From: Victivallales bacterium
GTDB lineage: Bacteria; Verrucomicrobiota; Lentisphaeria; Oligosphaerales; Lenti-02
Reading direction: 5' to 3'
NCBI GenBank assembly: GCA_003245525.1
Contig: QKCY01000601.1
Location: 1-48,973 of the forward strand
Length of the DNA stretch: 48,973 bases
Made by a program: the position numbers and the translations under genes. Shown one piece after another: positions 2,540-29,236 of this stretch. The notes below the pieces were generated by a model. It was not told the origin of the DNA, did no database searches, and saw nothing but the letters and a program-made list of their open reading frames with translations. Each line of letters begins with the position of its first letter. Within the stretch, counting starts at the first letter, position 1.

Positions 2540-3796
2540 ATGCCGCACCGCCGCATCCGTCCCCTCGCCCCCGGCTACACCGTGGTCTTCCGCTCGCCCG
2601 ACCCGCAACGGGTGTTTGGCTACAGTCCGGGAATCCTGGCCCTGCCCAATGGCCGCCTGATCGCCACCTGCGATTTCGGCGGCCCGGGAGCCATCGACCT
2701 GCCGGGGATCAAGACCGACGCGGGGGATTTCGGTCGACCGAACCAGGGCCGGGTGGCAACCAGCGACGATGGCGGCAAGACCTGGACCGAGCGGGCCACT
2801 CTGCCTCTGATGCACGCCACCCCGTTCGTGGCAGGTGACGCGGTCTACATCGTCGGACACGGGCGCGATCTGGGCATCGTGCGGAGCGACGACCAGGGCA
2901 CCACCTGGGGCGAGCGGGTGAAGTTCACCCAGGGAGAGACCTGGCACCAGGCTCCCACCAACGTGTGGTACACGCGGGACAGGGTCTATCTGGTCATGGA
3001 ACGCTATCTCCAGTTCGCCTGGGCCCACTGCGCCCCGGTCGTGATGAGCGCCCCGGTCACGGCGGACCTCACCCGGCGGGAGTCCTGGACCTTCTCCAAC
3101 CAGACCACGTTCCGCGAGCTGGTCGGGGAGCGGGTCCCCTTCCTCGGCGTTCCCTTCTTCACCCCCGGCAGCACCGCCCCGGGCAATCCCGGCGACAAAC
3201 GCAACATGGCTCCGCTGGGCTGGCTGGAAACCCATCTCATCCAGTTCCAGGACCCCGACCACGTGTGGTACGATCCGACGGGACGCACCTTCCACCTCAT
3301 CGGCCGGGCCCATACCGGAACCACCAACCTGGCCTGCCTGGCCAAAGCGGTGGAGGGGGAGGACGGCAGCATCACCGTGGGCCTGGAACACGCCCCCAGC
3401 GGCGAACCCATGGTCTATCTCCCCTGCCCCGGCGGCCAGATGAAGTTCCATATTCTGTACGATGCCGTGACCAAGCTCTTCTGGCTTCTGAGCACCCAGG
3501 CCACGGATTCCATGGTCCGCCCCGACCGCCTGCCCGCCGACCGCTTCAACCTGCCCAACAACGAGCGGCGCCGACTGCAACTGCATTTCTCGCGCAACGC
3601 GGTGGACTGGTGCTTCGCCGGGCTTGTGGCGGTCGGGGAAACGGAGCGTTCGTCCCGCCACTACGCCAGCATGGCCATCGCGGGGGACGACCTCGTCATC
3701 CTCAGCCGCTCCGGCGACCGGGAGGCCAAAGATGCCCACAACGGGAACATCGTTACCTTCCACCGCATCCCCCGGTTCCGCGAACTGGTGTACTGA
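2540..3796 (+). CDS. Sialidase-like (BNR/Asp-box) protein, copy 2
   Basis: A 418-residue paralogue of the preceding gene, with Asp-boxes SDDGGKTW and RSDDQGTTW in the same places and a near-identical C-terminal third (PNNERRRLQLHFSRN, VDWCFAGLVAVGE, RHYASMAI). GGAG at 2528-2531 is 8 bases before the ATG at 2540, so this start is preferred to the GTG at 2531. The genes are probably co-transcribed. Relative to copy 1 a loop near residues 155-175 differs, and copy 2 has an insertion rich in Gly and Pro where copy 1 has another, so the copies may differ in substrate loops. Sialidase activity is an inference from fold; the Arg-triad residues were not placed with confidence. Confidence 0.8.
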   Translation: MPHRRIRPLAPGYTVVFRSPDPQRVFGYSPGILALPNGRLIATCDFGGPGAIDLPGIKTDAGDFGRPNQGRVATSDDGGKTWTERATLPLMHATPFVAGDAVYIVGHGRDLGIVRSDDQGTTWGERVKFTQGETWHQAPTNVWYTRDRVYLVMERYLQFAWAHCAPVVMSAPVTADLTRRESWTFSNQTTFRELVGERVPFLGVPFFTPGSTAPGNPGDKRNMAPLGWLETHLIQFQDPDHVWYDPTGRTFHLIGRAHTGTTNLACLAKAVEGEDGSITVGLEHAPSGEPMVYLPCPGGQMKFHILYDAVTKLFWLLSTQATDSMVRPDRLPADRFNLPNNERRRLQLHFSRNAVDWCFAGLVAVGETERSSRHYASMAIAGDDLVILSRSGDREAKDAHNGNIVTFHRIPRFRELVY

Positions 3797-13525: not shown

Positions 13526-13541
13526 CCGACTACCTGTTGCA

Positions 13542-13570
13542 TTGGCGCGTTGGCGGTAGCAAGGTATGGT
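13542..13570 (+). promoter_or_regulatory. Possible promoter of the large glycosidase gene
   Basis: TTGGCG (13542-13547), a 17-bp spacer and TATGGT (13565-13570) lie about 25 bases before the ATG at 13596. Each hexamer matches consensus at four of six positions. Confidence 0.35.
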
Positions 13571-13595
13571 CTTCCCCCTTTGCCAGGAGATGACG

Positions 13596-16500
13596 ATGAT
13601 CCGCTTTGCCTCTCTTGCCGCCACTCTGCTCGCGCTTTCGGTCCACGCCCAATTGGTGGACACGTTCGGCAACCCTGCGGATTGGCATGCTGCCGACGAT
13701 GGCGGCAATGCGCCCGCCCTGTCCGCCGTCGCGGGAGGAATGCAAGCGGTCTACCAGGAGGCGAAGCCCGGCTGGGGCAATATCGTCCGCGACCTGCGAC
13801 TGACTGGCAAGGAAACGCTGGTCCGGCTGGACGTGCAGGTGGTCAGCGCTCAGCCCAAGGCGGCCATGCACCTCTGGTTGGTGGAGCCAGATCAGGACAT
13901 GTGGCTGATCCAACTCGGCATCGACGGCAAGTCCACAGGGGCGCTCGGCCCCGGCGACTACTCCTTCGAGGTGCCGTTGGACAAGCTCGCTTTCCAGCCA
14001 CGCGGCAAGCAGACCAAGGAGTTGTTTGCCAGTAACCGGCTGCTGATCGGCTTCAACTACGGCGACCAGACCGTGGTACTGAAGCGCCTGGCCTTCGAGT
14101 TCGACGCCGCCACCATGGCGCGGATCAAGGCGGAACAGGAGGGCAAGCAAGCCGCCGTACAAGCGGTCCTGGCCAAGGGCGGCTACCGGGAGGGCACCAC
14201 GTACCGGATTGCCCTGTTCGACGATCCTAAGGTTCCCACCCCCACCGTCGCCAGTTCGCCCGAGCGGCTCGCCGCCATCCTCGGCGGCGACGGCATCGGT
14301 ATCACCCGGCTCGATGCGACCGGCCTGAGCAATCCAGCGGTGCTTGACGCCAGCCGGTTCGACCTGTTGGTCCTGCCCTACGGTCCCAGCTTCCCCGCCG
14401 AAGCGGAGGAATCCATCCGCACCTTCTGCAAGCAGGGGGGAGACTTCCTCTCCCTGGGCGGCTACGCCTTCGACGAGCCCTATGCGCTCCAGGAAGCGGG
14501 GCCACCGCCGAACCTCATCCGGAATCCGGGTTTCGAGGACGCGGATACCACCATGTGGGGCCTGGACAAGGCCAGCATGCAGGAGGGAGATCCCAGCCAA
14601 GTCGTCCGTCGGCCCTCGACCGACCAGCCCCAGGCCGGGGCCGCGTGCTTCGAGATCACCGTGCCGGACGGCGTGCCGAAGGCCTGGTACAACGTCACCC
14701 AGAAGGTGGAGACCGTCCTCCCCGGTCATAGCTATCTGGCCACCTGTCAGTTGCGCACCCAGAACGTACACGACGGCTTTGCCTACATGGCCGTCGGGTT
14801 CTACGACAAGGAGGACAAGCGCATCTCCTTCGTCCATGCCACCGCTACCATCAAAGCCGAGGGCACCACGCCCTGGACCGAGCAGAAGGTTGCCTTCACC
14901 GTACCAAAAGGCACCGTCTACGCCACCGTCCACGGCCATCTCTACGGCTTCGGAACGGCTTGGTTCGACGCCTTCGAGCTGAAGGAGAACGCTTCCGTCC
15001 AGCTCAACACCCGGCACGGCAAGGCGGGCGACGCCCTCGGGCTGCGCGACGACCAGATCGGCGTGTTCGATCCCTCCTACGTCTTCGAGCGCACCACCCA
15101 CACCGAGTCCGCCCCGCTCCAGCACATCGTCCCCGCGACGGTGGCCCTCAAGGCCGAACTGAAGGGCTACGTGGCGGTGGGTATGACCAGCCCCAACAAC
15201 GCCGTCTCGCCCAAGCCCCGCGCCCGCTGGACCTCCCTGGTCCAGGCCTTCGACGACTATGGGCGGTTGACTGGTACGGTCCTCGGCATCTCCCACAACT
15301 TCACCGGCACCTTCAAGCACTCCCTGTGGGCCTACTGCGGGGTGGAGAACCAGGACCTGACCGCCGATCCCGCCTTCGCCACCGCCCTGCGCGAGGTCCG
15401 CGACCACCTGCGGCGGGGCGTCTTTCTGCACAGTCCCGCCACCGAGTACATGCTCTACCATCCCGGCGAGACCATCCAGGCCACGGCCCAGCTTGCCAAC
15501 GCGGGCAAGGAGGCGGGCACCTATACGGTCCGTTGCCGGCTTCTCGTCTCGGGCCAGTCCGTGGCCGAACAACAGACCACGGTCACGGTCACTCCCGGCG
15601 GCGACGAGCCCGCCAGGCTGACTTTCACCTGCCCGGAACCCGCCACCGGCACGGTTGAGGTCCGCTTCGAACTGCTGGACAACGGGCGCGCCATCGACCT
15701 GCTCCGCACCGGCTTCCTGATCCCCCTTGCCAGCGACAGCCAGGGCCTGGCCCTCGGCTACCAGGACAACTACTTCACCGCCGACGGGCATCCCGCCATC
15801 CTCTTCGGCACCAATCAGACCGGCGTCATGTTCGGCCCCGACTACGAGAACGTGCTCACCTGGATGGAGGACTACGGGCGCTGCCGCGACTACGGTCTCA
15901 CGGTCTGGCGGCTGCTGCACATCTCGCCCTACGCCGATCCCGACTTCCGCAAACGCGGCTACCAGATTCTGGACAATCCCCCGGAATGGCTCCTGCGCCG
16001 GATGGACGCGGTCTTCCTCCTCGCCCAGCGCTACCAACTCGCCCCCTTCCCCTGCTGGCACGACTGGACCGGCGGCACGGCGGTGTCGGACGAGAACCTG
16101 CGCCAGCAACAGGCCTTCGTGAAGGTCTATGGCGAACGCTACAAGCACCTGTCCGCCATGCTCTGGGATGTTTCCAACGAAGCGGCGACTGGCTACACGC
16201 CCATCGACGACCTCAACCGCCTGCTCGGCGGATTCCTCAAACAGAAGTACGGCACCGATGCCGCCCTCCGGGCCGCCTGGGGAGATCCGGCCATCACCTT
16301 CGCCACGGCAAGGTACGAGAAACCGCCCCAGTCCTGGGACAGCCGCCGGGCCCGCGACATCGAACTCTTCCGTGTGGAGGTGGCCAGCCGCTGGTTGCGG
16401 GGCAATGTCAGCGCCATGCGCGAGACCGGCGACACCCATCCGGTCTCCGACGAGTACTACCTGCTGCCGGGCGGCGACGCCTTCGGCGCGCGGGACACCA

Positions 16501-17945
16501 TGACCTTCGCCAACATCCACCGTTATCCCGACTGGACTCCCGGCGCGCTGCGCTACTACGACCGCCGGACGCAGGGCCGCGGCTTCGTGGTCGGCGAGTT
16601 CGGTCGCCGCCATCACCCGAGCATGAGGAGCGGCGGCTGGAGCTGGCTGCCCGAGCCCGAGGTCCGCAACTTCTTCCGCCGCGCCACCTTCATGGGCGTG
16701 GGCTGCGGCATGGCCAGCATGAGCAACTGGGACTGGAAGGATATGCGCGGGTGCGTCTTCCCCTGGGGCATCAACTATCCCAACGAGCTGGTCCCCAAGC
16801 AGGTGTCCCGCGATTTCCGCAATCTGGCCGTCTTCTTCCGTTCCTTCCGCCCCGTACACCGGCCCGAGGACGTGTGGTACGTCATCCCCGACCAGTTCCT
16901 GCTGGGCGGTCGGCAGAGCGAACTCGAACGGCGCATCCAGATCTCCCTCGATGCCATGTCCGACACCAACATCCCCTTCTCCGTCATCCGCCAGTACGAA
17001 CTGCCGAGCCTGCAGACCGCGTCCCCCAAGGCCATCGTCTTCCCGTTGCCCTATGTACTCAGCGACAGCGAAGTGGCTCTGCTGGTCGGCTTCGCGCTCC
17101 AGGGCGGCACCGTCTATCTCTCCGGCGACGCCAGCTACGACAGCGACCGGCAGCCCACCCGGCCCCAGATCATCGAGATTCTCACCGGCACAAAGCTGGC
17201 CGGCCGTCGCTATCCCGACATCCGCCGGGCCGGTGATCCGGTCCCGGCCTTCGCCGACCTGCCCGAAATCCGCTACGACGCCTATCCGGCCCTGGAATTG
17301 GCCGATCGCACCGACGTGCTCGTCCGCCACTCCCTTGCCCGCGGCCAGATTCTCTTCCTGAACGACCCCATCGAGTTGCACGCTAGCCGCGAGACCCTCC
17401 GCAAGGTCTACGCCCACCTACTGCCCGTGCCGCCCCTAACCAAAGACGCCAGCGTGCTGGCCTACCATCTCCCCACCCAGGACGGCGAGCTCCGCCTCCT
17501 GCTCAACGAAAGCGAGGAACAACGGACCCTCGCCCTGCCGCGGGTTGCGCTTCCTGTTGTCGCCGGTTCCCAAGTCGCGGTCCATGTCACCAAGGCCGGT
17601 GCCGTAACCGCCCTGGCCATGGATGGCACCGCGACGGTGGGGGGCACGCCCTTCGCCAGTGGCAGTGGTCGCCAGCTCGTTCTCTCTCTCGACGGGCAGG
17701 ACGTGAACAAGGCGGCAGCCCTCTTGGTCCTGCCTCTGGGCGAAGGCGAACTCAAGCTCGCCCGCGATCTGCCGGTCGCCATCGGCGAGGTCGTGGACGG
17801 TACTTGGCAGACCTACGAGACCTTGCCCTCCAGCCAGGACGTGGCCATCAGCGAACTCCGCTCCACCGCCTTCCTCCTCCTCTGCCCCGCCGATCAGCGC
17901 GACCGCTGGACCCAAGCCGTGGCCGCCCTCGTCATCCAGCCATAG
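13596..17945 (+). CDS. Giant exported clan GH-A glycoside hydrolase (beta-galactosidase-like)
   Basis: A 1449-residue secreted multidomain enzyme. The signal peptide ends near LLALSVHA. A jelly-roll-like N-domain follows to about 175, then an amidotransferase-like alpha/beta segment (about 195-300, DLLVLPYGPSFPAEAEE). A CBM4/9-like domain starts with NLIRNPGFEDADTTMWG (about 305-470). The catalytic barrel (about 720-1090) has WDVSNEA with presumed acid/base Glu862 and VVGEFGRR with presumed nucleophile Glu1001. A second amidotransferase-like domain (about 1145-1230), as in GH42 beta-galactosidases, and C-terminal beta domains follow. Family (GH42, GH5 or a relative) is uncertain, but the two glutamates and barrel order fit a retaining clan GH-A enzyme. 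AGGAG lies 6 bases before the ATG at 13596. Confidence 0.78.
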   Translation: MIRFASLAATLLALSVHAQLVDTFGNPADWHAADDGGNAPALSAVAGGMQAVYQEAKPGWGNIVRDLRLTGKETLVRLDVQVVSAQPKAAMHLWLVEPDQDMWLIQLGIDGKSTGALGPGDYSFEVPLDKLAFQPRGKQTKELFASNRLLIGFNYGDQTVVLKRLAFEFDAATMARIKAEQEGKQAAVQAVLAKGGYREGTTYRIALFDDPKVPTPTVASSPERLAAILGGDGIGITRLDATGLSNPAVLDASRFDLLVLPYGPSFPAEAEESIRTFCKQGGDFLSLGGYAFDEPYALQEAGPPPNLIRNPGFEDADTTMWGLDKASMQEGDPSQVVRRPSTDQPQAGAACFEITVPDGVPKAWYNVTQKVETVLPGHSYLATCQLRTQNVHDGFAYMAVGFYDKEDKRISFVHATATIKAEGTTPWTEQKVAFTVPKGTVYATVHGHLYGFGTAWFDAFELKENASVQLNTRHGKAGDALGLRDDQIGVFDPSYVFERTTHTESAPLQHIVPATVALKAELKGYVAVGMTSPNNAVSPKPRARWTSLVQAFDDYGRLTGTVLGISHNFTGTFKHSLWAYCGVENQDLTADPAFATALREVRDHLRRGVFLHSPATEYMLYHPGETIQATAQLANAGKEAGTYTVRCRLLVSGQSVAEQQTTVTVTPGGDEPARLTFTCPEPATGTVEVRFELLDNGRAIDLLRTGFLIPLASDSQGLALGYQDNYFTADGHPAILFGTNQTGVMFGPDYENVLTWMEDYGRCRDYGLTVWRLLHISPYADPDFRKRGYQILDNPPEWLLRRMDAVFLLAQRYQLAPFPCWHDWTGGTAVSDENLRQQQAFVKVYGERYKHLSAMLWDVSNEAATGYTPIDDLNRLLGGFLKQKYGTDAALRAAWGDPAITFATARYEKPPQSWDSRRARDIELFRVEVASRWLRGNVSAMRETGDTHPVSDEYYLLPGGDAFGARDTMTFANIHRYPDWTPGALRYYDRRTQGRGFVVGEFGRRHHPSMRSGGWSWLPEPEVRNFFRRATFMGVGCGMASMSNWDWKDMRGCVFPWGINYPNELVPKQVSRDFRNLAVFFRSFRPVHRPEDVWYVIPDQFLLGGRQSELERRIQISLDAMSDTNIPFSVIRQYELPSLQTASPKAIVFPLPYVLSDSEVALLVGFALQGGTVYLSGDASYDSDRQPTRPQIIEILTGTKLAGRRYPDIRRAGDPVPAFADLPEIRYDAYPALELADRTDVLVRHSLARGQILFLNDPIELHASRETLRKVYAHLLPVPPLTKDASVLAYHLPTQDGELRLLLNESEEQRTLALPRVALPVVAGSQVAVHVTKAGAVTALAMDGTATVGGTPFASGSGRQLVLSLDGQDVNKAAALLVLPLGEGELKLARDLPVAIGEVVDGTWQTYETLPSSQDVAISELRSTAFLLLCPADQRDRWTQAVAALVIQP

Positions 17946-21182: not shown

Positions 21183-23282
21183 ATGGCAGACACCCTAGCA
21201 GTAGACAACGCAACCCGTTGGCGCGAGGTCCTCTCCGCCAGCCGACAGCATCCGCGAGACGGACGGTACGACCTGCGGAAGTACTGGCGGGCTCTCGCCT
21301 ACCGGGAGCATCGGGGCGAACCGGAGCCGGTGGTCCGCGCCCAGGCGTTTGCCCATGTGCTGCGCCACATTGGCCTGCATGCATATCCCGGCGAAGCGAT
21401 CGCGGGAAGCCGGGCAGAGTTTGTCGTGAACGAGCTCCCCGCCAGTATCTGCGAGGCAGACTATCAGCAGGCCCTCGCCGAACACGACGCCCGCGGCCAG
21501 CGCACCTTCCAGGCTGGCTTCGACCATGCCACCCCCGACTACCCTGCCCTGCTGGCCGCGGGGATTGATGGCCTAATCCGGCGGGCGCAGGCAAGCCGGG
21601 AACGCCATGCGCAGGCCGCCGAACAGGCGTTTCTCGCTGCCGTCGCGATCTGCTTGGAGGGTCTGGGGGCCCTGGCGGAACGCTACGCCGCCATCAGTCC
21701 GGCCCCCGTGGACTTGCGCCACCTTGCCCATCAGTCGCCCCGAACCTTCCACGAGGCGCTCCAACTCGTCTGGCTGGTCCATCTCGCCTTCGTGAGCGAA
21801 GGACGCTACGCCATGGCCCTGGGTCGGATCGACCAGTACCTCTGGCCCTTCTACCGGGCTGATGTGGCGGCCGGACGTCTCTCTCCGGAGACGGCGTTGG
21901 ATTTGCTCTGCCACACGTGGGCCAAGATCGAGGAATTGGGCGAGATCACCAACATCTGCGTCGGGGGGCTCACGCCAAAGGGCGAGGACGCCACCAACGA
22001 GTTGAGCTACCTGGTCATCGAGGCCACCCGGCTGGTGCAATCCCCGCGCACCAATCTCTCGGCCCGCTTCCACGACGGCTCGCCGGAACGCTACCACCGG
22101 GCCTGTTTCGAGTGTCTGCGGACCGGCGTAGGTTTCCCGGCCCTGTTCAACGACCACGCCCTGATCCCCGGCCTGGTGGAACTGGGCATTCCCCTGGAGA
22201 CCGCCCGCGACTACTCCATGGTGGGTTGCATCGAGACCTACTTCGCCGGACGACAACCCGCCTGGGGCGACGGCGTGCCCGGCTTCCGGGGCGAGAGCAA
22301 CCAGCAGTGCCTCGACCGCGCCTTGCGCGCCATCGCCACGGAACCGAGTCCCACCTATGAAAAACTGGTGGACCGGTTCCGCCTGGAGTTGCGCGCCTTC
22401 TTCCGGCAGTGCGCCGATCGGGTGAACGAGTACGTCGCCCGCTTCCCCCCGGAGCGGTTCCCCGACCCCTTCCTCTCGGCTCTGACCCAAGACTGCATCG
22501 GCCGGGCGCGGGATATCAACGACGGCGGGGCGATGGTACCCCGTTTCTACAAATGCGCGGGCGGGGAGAACCTGGCCAGTCTGGCGGACTCCCTCGCGGC
22601 GGTGAAGAAGCTGGTGTTCGACGAGCGCCAGCTCACCCTCGCCGACCTGGTCGCCTCGCTCGATGCGGATTTCGCGGGTTTGGAGCCCCTGCGCAATCTC
22701 CTGCTCAACGCCGCGCCCAAATACGGCAACGACGATCCGTATGTGGACAAGATCGCGGCGGCGATGCTGGAACTGGTTACCGAAGAGGTCATGGCTCTAC
22801 CGCCGGTCCATGGCGGTGGCCGCTTCGTGGCCTGCGCGGCAGGCAACGTCCACAACATCGTGCGGGGAAAGCAGGTCGGGGCCACACCGGATGGCAGGCG
22901 GGCGGGCGAACCGCTCGCGGACGCCACCAGTCCCTTCTTCGGGCGCGACCGGCAAGGCCCGACCGCTATCCTGAACTCCATGGGGCGGACCGCCTGCCGC
23001 CAGGTTCTCGGCGGCCGCGTGGCCAACCTGAAATTCGAACCCGAGCATTTTGCGGGCGAGGAAGGGGTCCGGCGTTTCGGGGCCTTCACCCGCCTGTTTG
23101 TCGAGCGCCGCATCCAGGAACTCCAGGTGAACTTCACCGGCAACGCCATCCTCCGCGACGCCCGCCAAAACCCCGAACGGTACCGGAATCTGGTGGTGCG
23201 CGTCAGCGGCTTCTCGGCCTACTTCACCCAGCTCTCGCCCGAAGTCCAAGACGACGTCATCCGCCGCCGCGCCCATATGTAG
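21183..23282 (+). CDS. Glycyl radical enzyme of the PFL superfamily, dehydratase-like
   Basis: A 699-residue oxygen-sensitive radical enzyme. The radical site is Gly676 in RVSGFSAYF, 23 residues from the end. The thiyl Cys349 lies in YSMVGCIETYF. The Cys-x-Glu pattern (Glu351) is that of eliminating enzymes such as glycerol dehydratase or choline TMA-lyase; pyruvate formate-lyase has Cys-Cys. SPRTNLSARFHDG and GVGFPALFNDHAL are further family blocks. The length is shorter than usual (about 760-850). The start is uncertain: ATGs at 21096, 21132 and 21183 are in frame and none has a strong Shine-Dalgarno. No radical-SAM activase is visible in the window. It is convergent with a sugar operon; the substrate is unknown. 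Confidence 0.85.
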   Translation: MADTLAVDNATRWREVLSASRQHPRDGRYDLRKYWRALAYREHRGEPEPVVRAQAFAHVLRHIGLHAYPGEAIAGSRAEFVVNELPASICEADYQQALAEHDARGQRTFQAGFDHATPDYPALLAAGIDGLIRRAQASRERHAQAAEQAFLAAVAICLEGLGALAERYAAISPAPVDLRHLAHQSPRTFHEALQLVWLVHLAFVSEGRYAMALGRIDQYLWPFYRADVAAGRLSPETALDLLCHTWAKIEELGEITNICVGGLTPKGEDATNELSYLVIEATRLVQSPRTNLSARFHDGSPERYHRACFECLRTGVGFPALFNDHALIPGLVELGIPLETARDYSMVGCIETYFAGRQPAWGDGVPGFRGESNQQCLDRALRAIATEPSPTYEKLVDRFRLELRAFFRQCADRVNEYVARFPPERFPDPFLSALTQDCIGRARDINDGGAMVPRFYKCAGGENLASLADSLAAVKKLVFDERQLTLADLVASLDADFAGLEPLRNLLLNAAPKYGNDDPYVDKIAAAMLELVTEEVMALPPVHGGGRFVACAAGNVHNIVRGKQVGATPDGRRAGEPLADATSPFFGRDRQGPTAILNSMGRTACRQVLGGRVANLKFEPEHFAGEEGVRRFGAFTRLFVERRIQELQVNFTGNAILRDARQNPERYRNLVVRVSGFSAYFTQLSPEVQDDVIRRRAHM

Positions 23283-26723: not shown

Positions 26724-28238
26724 CTAGGCGTTCCGGCGGCGGGGGAGCACGGTGAGCACCATGCCCACGAGGAAGAGTCCCAGCCCCACGGCGGGAGCGG
26801 CCACTTTCCCCGTCTGGGAGACCGGGCTGCGGGCGGTCTCCAGTTCGCGGGTAGTCTGTGGGCTCCACCCGGTCAGCCGGGCGTCGTCGGCGCGGGGCAG
26901 GTCCGCCCCGCCTTCGGTGAAGGCGTAGAGTTTGCCGTCGTGCCCGGGATAGAGCAGGAGGGCCTCGCCACCATCGCGCTGGAGGAGCGAAGGGGAGGAC
27001 CACAGGGAGGCACCGCGGGTCTCGTAGGACCACAGCATATCGCCCGAGGAAAAGTCCATGAGCGCACAACCCGTCTCGCCGTCGAGCGCATAGAGCCGGT
27101 TGTCCAACGAACAGATGAAGACGGTGGGGCGTCCCTTGATATGGCCCAAGGCCGGCGAGGACACCACGTACTTGCCCGTCTGGAACTTCCAGACCTCGTC
27201 GCCCGCCTTGGCCTCGATGGCGTGGACGCAGCGGTCGGAGGAACCGATGGCCAGGAGCAGCAAGTCGCCCGCCTTGTAGAGCACCGGCGTGGAAAGGATC
27301 TCGTGACCCGCCTTGTAGTGCCAGAGCGAGGCACCCGTGGCGGCATTCAGACAGCGGACCATGCCCCAGGCGTTGGCGGCGACCACGACCGGCACGTTGG
27401 CGATCTCGGCCACCAGCGGGGCGGCATCGATCCGGTGATCGGTGAGATAGGTCCACACCTCCTTGCCGGTACGGGCGTCGCAACAGTACAGCCTGCCGTC
27501 CTCGGAGCCGAAGTAGAGCCGAGGCTCGCCGCAGTCCTGGGAGTTCTTCTTGATCCGGTAGAAGGTGGGCGTGGTGAGGTGTCCGCTGGAGATGCGTTCC
27601 TTCCAGATCAGATTCCCGGTCGCCGCCTCGATGGCATAGAGGTCGCCGTTCTGGGTGGTGCGCAGGGGCCGCCGGTCGCCATTCCACATGGTGGAGAACA
27701 GAACGTCCCGACCGTCGAGATCCACCACCAGCGGCGATCCGGCCACGCTCTCGCCCACGGTGTAGGTCCAGTTGTAGGTTTCGTAGTTCCAGAGCTTCTT
27801 GCCAGTACGGGCGTCGAGGCCGTAGAAGCAGCGGTCACTCGAAGCGACGAACAGCATGGGCTGGCCCTTGATCCAGGCAAAAGCAGGAGACGCCTTCACC
27901 AGGCAGCCGGTGGTGAACCGCCAGATCTCCCGCCCGTTTTCGGGATCGAGGCAGTAGATGTTGTGGTCGTAGGAGCCGACGAAGATGCGCAGCTTCCCAT
28001 CCACCACCGCGCCGATGGCGTTGCTGGTCCAGACGCTGGCCCCCTGGCAGTACTTCCAGGTGTGACTGCCGAGGTCGAAGGTCCACAGGTGGCGATAGGG
28101 CGGGGTCTTGAGCTGAAGCCCGGACTGGCCGCTCCGGCTGGGATCGCCCCGGAACATGGGCCATTCGGGACGCGGCTTGTCCTCCTGGGCCGGAACCCAG
28201 GCCGCAACGAGCAGGAGAATCAGAGCCAGGTGCCTCAT
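26724..28238 (-). CDS. Exported PQQ-type beta-propeller protein with C-terminal membrane anchor
   Basis: A 504-residue protein with a signal peptide (RHLALILLLVAAWVPAQ), an eight-blade PQQ-like propeller and a C-terminal helix (VAAPAVGLGLFLVGMVLTVLP) followed by RRR. Blades repeat as (L/I)YxLDxxTGxxxWxxxTG: IYCLDPENGREIWRFTTG, FYGLDARTGKKLWNYET, LYCCDARTGKEVWTYLTD, VHAIEAKAGDEVWKFQTG, LYALDGETG. WPMFRGDPSRSG at the mature N-terminus is typical of this family. Quinone binding or simply a scaffold are both possible; no dehydrogenase Asp/Cys-Cys site was recognised. GAGGAGG precedes the ATG, which overlaps the polyferredoxin stop by ATGA. Extracellular or periplasmic location. Confidence 0.85.
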   Translation of the reverse strand: MRHLALILLLVAAWVPAQEDKPRPEWPMFRGDPSRSGQSGLQLKTPPYRHLWTFDLGSHTWKYCQGASVWTSNAIGAVVDGKLRIFVGSYDHNIYCLDPENGREIWRFTTGCLVKASPAFAWIKGQPMLFVASSDRCFYGLDARTGKKLWNYETYNWTYTVGESVAGSPLVVDLDGRDVLFSTMWNGDRRPLRTTQNGDLYAIEAATGNLIWKERISSGHLTTPTFYRIKKNSQDCGEPRLYFGSEDGRLYCCDARTGKEVWTYLTDHRIDAAPLVAEIANVPVVVAANAWGMVRCLNAATGASLWHYKAGHEILSTPVLYKAGDLLLLAIGSSDRCVHAIEAKAGDEVWKFQTGKYVVSSPALGHIKGRPTVFICSLDNRLYALDGETGCALMDFSSGDMLWSYETRGASLWSSPSLLQRDGGEALLLYPGHDGKLYAFTEGGADLPRADDARLTGWSPQTTRELETARSPVSQTGKVAAPAVGLGLFLVGMVLTVLPRRRNA

Positions 28239-29236
28239 GCTTCGTCCTCCTCGCTCTTTCGTTCCTCCCGCACGAAGCGGTAGTCGCAGACCCGGTTGCA
28301 CTGGCCGCAGTAGATGCAGCTCGATCCATCCACCTCGCCCCGGTCCAGCGCCCCCATTGGGCAGGTGGTGTCGCAGGTGCCGCAGTTCGTGCAGGGCGTC
28401 GTCTTGCGCACCCGGATGGGGCTGAACTTGGTCAGCCAACCCAGCGCGCCGCCCATGGGACAGAGATAGCGGCACCAGGCCATGGGCACGATCAGCGCCC
28501 CGGCCAGCACCGCCGCCAGGGAGACGGCGCTGGAATAGTCGATCTCGTCCCCGAAGAACGTACACCAGGGGCTGGTCACGAAGACCCCAATCACCGAGAG
28601 CCCCAGCCAAAGGACGACGGAGACGTACTTCACCCCCTTGAACCGCCGGTCGTGCAGCTCGAAGGGCAGCACCGCCGCCAGGAAAAGCAGCAGGGACGCG
28701 CCCCACATGGCCGCGATGTTCTCCGAGAAGAACTGCGTGCCGGGCCGCACCAGCCAGGCAAACCAGGTCACGACCACCAGCACGCCCGCCAGCATCAAAT
28801 AGCCCGCGATCAGCCGGCGCCCCTTGGGCAATCGCTGGCGCAGGCGGGCCGGTATACTCAAAAGTTCACTGAAGAGTCCCAAGGGACAGAGCCAACCGCA
28901 GAATAATCGGCCGAAGGCCAGGGTCAGCGAAACGAGCAGGACGAACATGCAGAGATGGCCAAAGGCCACGATATCGTTCCGCCCCACCTTGTTCAGCGCG
29001 AAGATCCAGCCCCGCAACATGCAGAGGCAGCGGTGCAGGAAGAGGATGAAGACGAAGGCTGCGGTGATCTGGCAGGCCCGCCGCCAGAGCTGCACGTGCT
29101 TGCCGCGATGCAGCAGCACGTGGGCGGCAATCAGAATGCCGAAGAAGATCACGAACGGCGCGGCGTCGATCCAGAATCCCTGGATCGGCAACAGGGCCTG
29201 TTTGGTGATCTTGAAGAGAGGAACGTCGATTCTCAT
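28235..29236 (-). CDS. NapH/CcoG-like membrane polyferredoxin
   Basis: A 333-residue integral membrane iron-sulfur protein. Helices lie about 26-45, 55-75, 92-112, 143-163, 177-195, 205-225 and 235-255. Two CxxxCP motifs follow membrane segments (CGWLCP 113-118; CRYLCP 255-260). Two ferredoxin-type clusters follow: CTNCGTCDTTCP (282-293) and CIYCGQCNRVC (307-317), with CP in the first only. This architecture occurs in NapH, CcoG/RdxA and NosR-type electron conduits. It probably passes electrons across or along the membrane. Both ends overlap neighbours by ATGA, so it is in a tightly coupled set with an ABC transporter (upstream) and the propeller protein (downstream). The partner is not known. 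Confidence 0.88.
   Translation of the reverse strand: MRIDVPLFKITKQALLPIQGFWIDAAPFVIFFGILIAAHVLLHRGKHVQLWRRACQITAAFVFILFLHRCLCMLRGWIFALNKVGRNDIVAFGHLCMFVLLVSLTLAFGRLFCGWLCPLGLFSELLSIPARLRQRLPKGRRLIAGYLMLAGVLVVVTWFAWLVRPGTQFFSENIAAMWGASLLLFLAAVLPFELHDRRFKGVKYVSVVLWLGLSVIGVFVTSPWCTFFGDEIDYSSAVSLAAVLAGALIVPMAWCRYLCPMGGALGWLTKFSPIRVRKTTPCTNCGTCDTTCPMGALDRGEVDGSSCIYCGQCNRVCDYRFVREERKSEEDEA

Follow-up and report, generated by a model that had tools for sequence, protein, structure and literature searches.

The window, i.e., the whole stretch of DNA that was analysed (48,973 nucleotides), carries at 21183-23282 of its plus strand a gene coding for a glycyl radical enzyme (GRE) of 699 aa, an oxygen-sensitive kind of enzyme, recognised from its stop-free translation and from Pfam. 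The frame is complete and has no internal stop; upstream, inspection of the ORFs shows that the same frame stays open as far as 19848, because the DNA is GC-rich. The protein matches the Pfam families PFL-like (E 1.5e-104) and Gly_radical (E 9.1e-21, residues 579-682), and this match to the GRE superfamily exceeds chance by far. Elsewhere in the window, at 13530-17945, long open frames occupy both strands of GC-rich DNA, and the plus-strand frame of 1459 residues seems, by eye, to be real and to encode a secreted protein.

Homologues were collected by a scan of named genomes, from which the best 80 of 354 relatives were kept (loci, contigs and genomes are designated L, C and G, respectively). 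Among these 80, the nearest named relatives come from a Victivallales bacterium (78% identity) and a Lentisphaeria bacterium (66%); next are those from Planctomycetota, other Lentisphaerota, Chloroflexota, Armatimonadota and Bacillota. Matches at E 1e-100 or better occur in 17 of 47 genomes of the order. A 59-row alignment combines the window protein with 58 of the 80 loci; the other 22 were partial, near-copies or N-bearing, or in some cases omitted for space. The residues invariant in all 59 rows are His115, Cys349, Glu351, Asp363, Trp361, Asn257, Asn291, Arg295, Asn323, Asp324, Asn555 and Gly676.

According to PMC11528403, the radical glycine of GREs lies in the motif RVxG[FWY]. The window protein has RVSGF at this point, and Gly676 (codon 23208-23210, plus strand like all those below), the glycyl radical site in RVSGFS, falls inside the Pfam Gly_radical match. 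Cys349 (codon 22227-22229), the thiyl radical site, occupies the mid-protein position typical of the superfamily, in a barrel fold matched over residues 7-699. Both residues had been named in the initial annotation, and translation, Pfam and the alignment (59/59 each) confirm them. Glu351 (22233-22235) completes the Cys-x-Glu of eliminase-type GREs, present in the window protein and all its aligned homologues (59/59).

A profile made from 17 relatives has glycerol dehydratase 1r8w as its top match (1.1e-161), and the resulting alignment places His115 (21525-21527), Cys349, Glu351 and Asp363 (22269-22271) on His164, Cys433, Glu435 and Asp447, which we take to be the catalytic set of that enzyme. 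The Cys-Ile-Glu site, read at the outset as dehydratase-like, is thus borne out and extended, with His115 and Asp363 completing the glycerol dehydratase set. The catalytic equivalents of a glycerol/1,2-propanediol GRE dehydratase are therefore in place, but the substrate-lining ones are not: His281, Ser282 and Tyr339 of 1r8w, presumably the residues that line the glycerol, are aligned to Ala210, Met211 and Ile255 (21945-21947; Val or Ile in 53/59), at positions that vary across the family. The lid loop that precedes Tyr339 is absent from the window protein. Furthermore, Arg208 (53/59) and Arg107 (49/59) stand where glycerol dehydratase has Asn.

Compact length and predicted fold

Solved GREs range from 759 residues (PflB) to 897 (large subunit of hydroxyphenylacetate decarboxylase), and some CutC-type enzymes are longer. 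The protein is indeed shorter than the characterised families, as had been noted, although the difference comes to about 60-200 residues and not to the 60-150 claimed. Most of the shortening lies N-terminal of the RxDQ motif (213 residues versus 286 in YbiW); another 19 residues are missing between this motif and the Cys, and 18 between the Cys and the Gly. The relatives L086, L087, L088, L091 and L092 are equally short (690-699 aa), and an AlphaFold model made with the 59-row alignment (pLDDT 92.8, pTM 0.93) comprises the whole GRE fold. A truncated gene is ruled out by this predicted full fold and by the equal-length relatives; judging from sequences and model, the short length is a family trait.

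As regards function, Foldseek gives 1,2-propanediol dehydratase, glycerol dehydratase and PflD as best matches (TMq 0.85-0.87), whereas the top matches of a second structural aligner are an Archaeoglobus GRE and an arylacetate decarboxylase. As the second aligner sets all of these enzymes within about 2 Z units of one another, the fold cannot pick out a function.

Phylogenetic position and gene neighbourhood

A maximum-likelihood tree of 52 GREs comprised the window protein with 25 of the 80 loci, eight anchors, and 18 of the 19 further GRE loci in the window's genome. All 26 members of the family unite in a single clade (100/100). None of the anchors (PflB, PflD, YbiW, HypD, a Pdu-type dehydratase, a CutC-type enzyme and two more GREs) falls inside it, nor does any of the 18 other GREs of that genome; many other branches of the tree are long and weakly supported, as the program itself warns. 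The window protein pairs with L084, and then with L085 (100/100), and this trio is nested among members that keep their partner genes. Among NCBIfam equivalogs (CutC, HypD, HpsG/HpfG, PRK09983, the HPA and indoleacetate decarboxylases, and PflB), every matched model scores below its curated cut-off, and the broad subfamily TIGR01774 reaches 442 against a cut-off of 678. Clear clustering with a characterised enzyme, the outcome that the initial annotation had set against its own reading, is seen neither in NCBIfam nor in the tree with its eight anchors. The suggestion that the substrate could be new gains indirect support from this lack of a clustering characterised family and from the differing pocket residues, both read from sequence.

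One possibility is that the gene encodes an ordinary B12-independent glycerol or 1,2-propanediol dehydratase which has lost its usual neighbours. These enzymes provide the nearest profile match and the nearest folds, and the window protein is like 1r8w and the 1,2-propanediol dehydratases 5i2g and 9rco in fold and in the Cys/Glu/Asp/His set, with the catalytic residues in register. But identity amounts to only 26-31%, their chains count 787 residues or more, the lid loop and Tyr339 are missing here, and the window family does not keep His281 and Ser282. In addition, the Kosakonia Pdu-type anchor is excluded from the clade with full support (100/100; 1r8w and 5i2g themselves are absent from the tree). 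Such an identity is, in consequence, unlikely.

Equally improbable is a YbiW/PflD-like action on an anhydro-sugar or a sugar phosphate, by opening or rearranging it. PflD and YbiW are among the best fold matches and head the single-sequence PDB matches (318 and 313 bits, respectively, with CutC and glycerol dehydratase close behind), yet in the tree they go with HypD and the Pdu-type enzyme and not with the window clade, and PRK09983 scores 353, far under its equivalog cut-off of 1109. With HypD, CutC, HpsG/HpfG, IslA, the decarboxylases, the X-succinate synthases and PflB the protein has in common the GRE fold and the Gly and Cys sites; it is set apart from IslA and the X-succinate synthases by PDB sequence and fold comparison only, and from PflB by having no adjacent Cys-Cys.

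On the opposite strand, Pfam identifies (i) a GFO/IDH/MocA oxidoreductase; (ii) a xylose-isomerase-like TIM barrel; and (iii) a GntR/LacI-type regulator. Hence, the sugar-metabolism neighbours first described are real, but they are not kept beside the gene in the 78%-identical L084 and are, for that reason, weak evidence. L084 keeps the upstream synteny, including the heptosyltransferase and phosphoesterase stretch, but not the downstream one, and the window's sugar genes were set aside as pathway partners. At 28238-29236 of the minus strand, the window also encodes a membrane protein with a Fer4_5 iron-sulphur domain, adjoined by a gene which is beta-propeller-like by eye.

Partner genes were counted at 81 loci (the window and the best 80 of 354 relatives) in same-strand clusters with gaps below 250 bp; contig ends make these counts lower bounds. 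A zinc alcohol dehydrogenase is present in at least 43 of the 81 loci, an adjoining activase gene, as in a dedicated GRE-activase pair, in at least 31, both in at least 24, and either in at least 50. In Lentisphaerota and Planctomycetota, a divergent AraC regulator is followed by dehydrogenase, GRE and activase; in Bacillota, the divergent AraC is followed by GRE, activase and dehydrogenase. The clusters of the window copy, L084 and L085 contain neither dehydrogenase nor activase. The TIGR02494 profile has no match, and there is no activase, on the whole 49-kb contig. The observation that no activase adjoins the window gene was therefore correct and can be refined to a loss, because many relatives keep an activase next door. 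As for the operon dehydrogenase, it is of a generic medium-chain type, below every NCBIfam equivalog cut-off, and a search for its orthologue in the window's genome found none (best match 32%).

A gene that has lost both partners, as have its two nearest relatives, might be a decaying relic. But its catalytic residues are all intact, the upstream gene order is kept in L084, and eight of the 12 GREs of another genome of the order (G014) are equally orphan. Between the window GRE and L084, dN is 0.144 and dS 0.798 (dN/dS about 0.18), that is, the gene is under purifying selection. On the dN/dS value and the intact residues, a relic was rejected as highly improbable.

Hydrolases of several kinds recur near the GRE: (i) an alpha/beta hydrolase within the cluster (L098, L111, L135) or as an N-terminal fusion partner of the GRE in two genomes of uncultured Victivallis (L106 7245-10076, L110 7257-10055); (ii) a GDSL-type hydrolase (L137 and, below cut-off, L146); and (iii) a carbohydrate esterase (L141, L150). 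In a domain search of 78 of the 104 cluster proteins, a rhamnosidase domain and a xylose-isomerase-like barrel were each found in 5 of the 78. Microcompartment genes, which would fit an ordinary dehydratase, were not recognised among the recurrent neighbours, 1 of the 78 proteins matching PTAC; L144 4441-5097, considered as a phosphotransacylase (PTAC), was ruled out, being Spore_II_R. A 495-aa neighbour recurring in six Bacillota loci has no match in Pfam or NCBIfam and looks, by eye, like a sugar-binding lipoprotein.

These clusters might be taken to encode a sugar-acid route, in which the dehydrogenase would form a lactone, the hydrolase would open it and the GRE would turn the aldonate into a 2-keto-3-deoxy acid. 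Dehydrogenase, hydrolase and GRE do occur in one cluster, the fusion at two loci joins the latter two, the Arg208 and Arg107 that replace Asn would suit it, and genes near the GRE include those for a KDPG/KHG aldolase and a pfkB kinase at L126 and for a DHDPS-family protein at L160. Nevertheless, aldolase genes were noticed at no more than two loci, through inspection of neighbours and not through a systematic count, the three unrelated hydrolase kinds fit esterases as well as lactonases, and NCBIfam does not allow the dehydrogenase family to be assigned. The route is doubtful, if slightly less so than the two enzyme identities considered above.

Glycyl radical enzymes and activases across genomes

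The window comprises the entire contig C33 of genome G000 (6.70 Mb, 607 contigs, 87.75% complete). This genome has 20 GRE loci, including that of the window, on contigs C116, C140, C372, C77, C390, C463, C510, C115, C159, C35, C490, C165, C327, C474, C62, C471, C419, C375, C391 and C33; 19 have the Gly domain, and median pairwise identity is 26%. Cys-x-Glu is found in 15 of the 19 G000 GREs that have the Cys region and is absent in four, one of them PflB-type. This split and the low median identity make several chemistries likely.

The expectation that an activase must be encoded elsewhere holds: a genome-wide TIGR02494 search found six in G000, so that the complete absence of activases, which would have suggested a relic, is not the case. 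All six pass TIGR02494 or, as contig-end fragments, match it. That on C116 adjoins the PflB-type GRE, those on C165, C375, C390 and C159 share a stretch with another GRE, and that on C126 is without a GRE. Weak TIGR02494 matches were left uncounted: of 12 extracted, 11 have ferredoxin-type Cys motifs by eye and the twelfth, on C67, proved to be AmmeMemoRadiSam; two more are on C426 and C56. The best candidate partner is on C165, since activases of its type sit beside the window GRE family elsewhere; it shares 51-54% identity with the operon activases of L087, L088, L090 and L091.

The 47 genomes of the order (G000-G046) contain 331 Gly_radical genes and 106 activases, and the 16 genomes with at least 10 GREs contain 240 GREs and 61 activases. 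In 20 other carrier genomes there are 113 GREs and 60 activases; the ratio is about 1 in G066, G074, G075 and G078, 7 to 1 in G061 and 16 to 4 in G064. Within the order, G017 has ten GREs and one activase, which is free-standing, while G035, G036 and G040 have 15 GREs each and 2, 3 and 3 activases, all free-standing (these three belong to one genus and, as close relatives, represent roughly one case). The one-contig genome G014, matched to that of L107, the cultured Oligosphaera ethanolica DSM 24202, has 12 GREs and six activases; none of the eight orphan GREs has an activase within 200 kb, and two of the activases have no GRE within 190 kb.

The surroundings of 53 activases were inspected, 52 from the order's 106, chosen mainly from genomes with at least 7 GREs, and one from G061. 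Of the 53, 26 have a GRE within 2.5 kb, 19 are flanked on each side by at least 3.5 kb without a GRE, and 8 are too close to a contig end. In an activase tree of 66 rows, which includes these 53, a 99/95 branch sets off 29 rows: eight operon activases of the window GRE family and 21 from the order or G061, among them C165 and 11 free-standing activases. The other half holds eight free-standing activases together with the Bacillota operon activases of L118 and L137. The free-standing label changes at least six times on the tree, implying that this state was gained or lost repeatedly. A ferredoxin-less activase was rejected as a free-standing generalist, as it is beside a GRE in 6 of the 7 genomes with enough sequence; the exception is C126 of G000 (3069-3728), with no GRE in the surrounding 9 kb, and its G001 homologue on C641 is cut by the contig end.

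According to PMC11528403, each GRE relies on a dedicated activating partner, as a rule encoded in its vicinity, and the activases of the enzymes studied there do not cross-activate. Here, in contrast, TIGR02494 activases are far fewer than GREs and often free-standing, and these counts do not fit dedicated partnering as a general rule in the order. Activase families of other kinds or incomplete genomes could account for part of the shortage, but not in the closed genome G014. On sequence counts, few activators and many GREs suggest that one activator serves many enzymes. No description of the window GRE clade or of the activase shortage was found in the open-licence PMC literature.

A putative C-O lyase and its proposed activation in trans

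The observed basis for interpretation consists of an intact gene with a predicted full fold, five conserved residues, purifying selection, a clade of its own and usual partners. On the simplest reading, the GRE is intact and of dehydratase type, its partner genes have been lost, and its radical is supplied in trans. More specifically, and with somewhat more confidence than doubt, the window protein is regarded as an active glycyl radical C-O lyase (a diol-type dehydratase) of a compact clade, acting on a larger sugar-derived substrate and trans-activated, most likely, by a C165-type activase.

The chemistry, C-O cleavage with removal of water, is probably that of the glycerol dehydratase family. 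A radical-SAM activase encoded elsewhere in the genome would place the radical on Gly676, from which it would move to Cys349. The Cys349 thiyl radical would then take a hydrogen from a hydroxyl-bearing carbon, Glu351 would deprotonate the hydroxyl, and His115 and Asp363 would help the neighbouring OH to leave; a carbonyl product would form and the radical would return to Gly676. Against a C-O lyase, the same core residues also occur in GREs cleaving C-N or C-S bonds.

The missing lid, the replacement of the glycerol-lining residues and the frequent Arg107 and Arg208 argue for a larger or charged substrate. The dehydrogenase, esterase, rhamnosidase and isomerase-like neighbours point to a carbohydrate. 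Taken together, the context suggests a larger polyhydroxy compound of sugar origin, whose conversion would also involve an NAD(P)-dependent dehydrogenase and, in many cases, an esterase; this sugar context is partly generic, as these genomes appear rich in glycosidases.

Activation in trans, with a C165-type activase as most likely candidate, is suggested by the genome counts and the activase tree. Against C165 itself, it adjoins another GRE and may be dedicated to it; against the C165-type link, the operon activases of L118 and L137 fall on the opposite side of the tree split; and against trans-activation as such, the genome is 87.75% complete and a dedicated activase may be missing from the assembly. 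A broader proposal, for and against which we see about equal grounds, is that, in this order of Lentisphaeria-type bacteria, a few generalist activases, one kind of which would be descended from or sister to the ancestral operon activase of the window gene, charge numerous and chemically diverse GREs in trans, the window gene being one of those served and acting on a sugar-derived substrate.

Time and again, the discovery of new GRE families has led to new anaerobic reactions, and this conserved clade, with its remodelled pocket, offers a definable target. Genomes with 10-24 GREs but 1-6 activases, including the one-contig G014, make activase specificity directly testable. A generalist activase, if it exists, would be a practical tool for GREs from uncultured bacteria without a known partner.

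Two GRE genes share one stretch in L120 (1724-6974, with the activase between them), L152 (5606-9893) and L085 (2161-9730). In L093 (1071-7619, Anaerolineae), the GRE is directly preceded by homologues of Ldh_2, LuxE and LuxC, a hint that the product at that locus is an aldehyde or an acyl compound.
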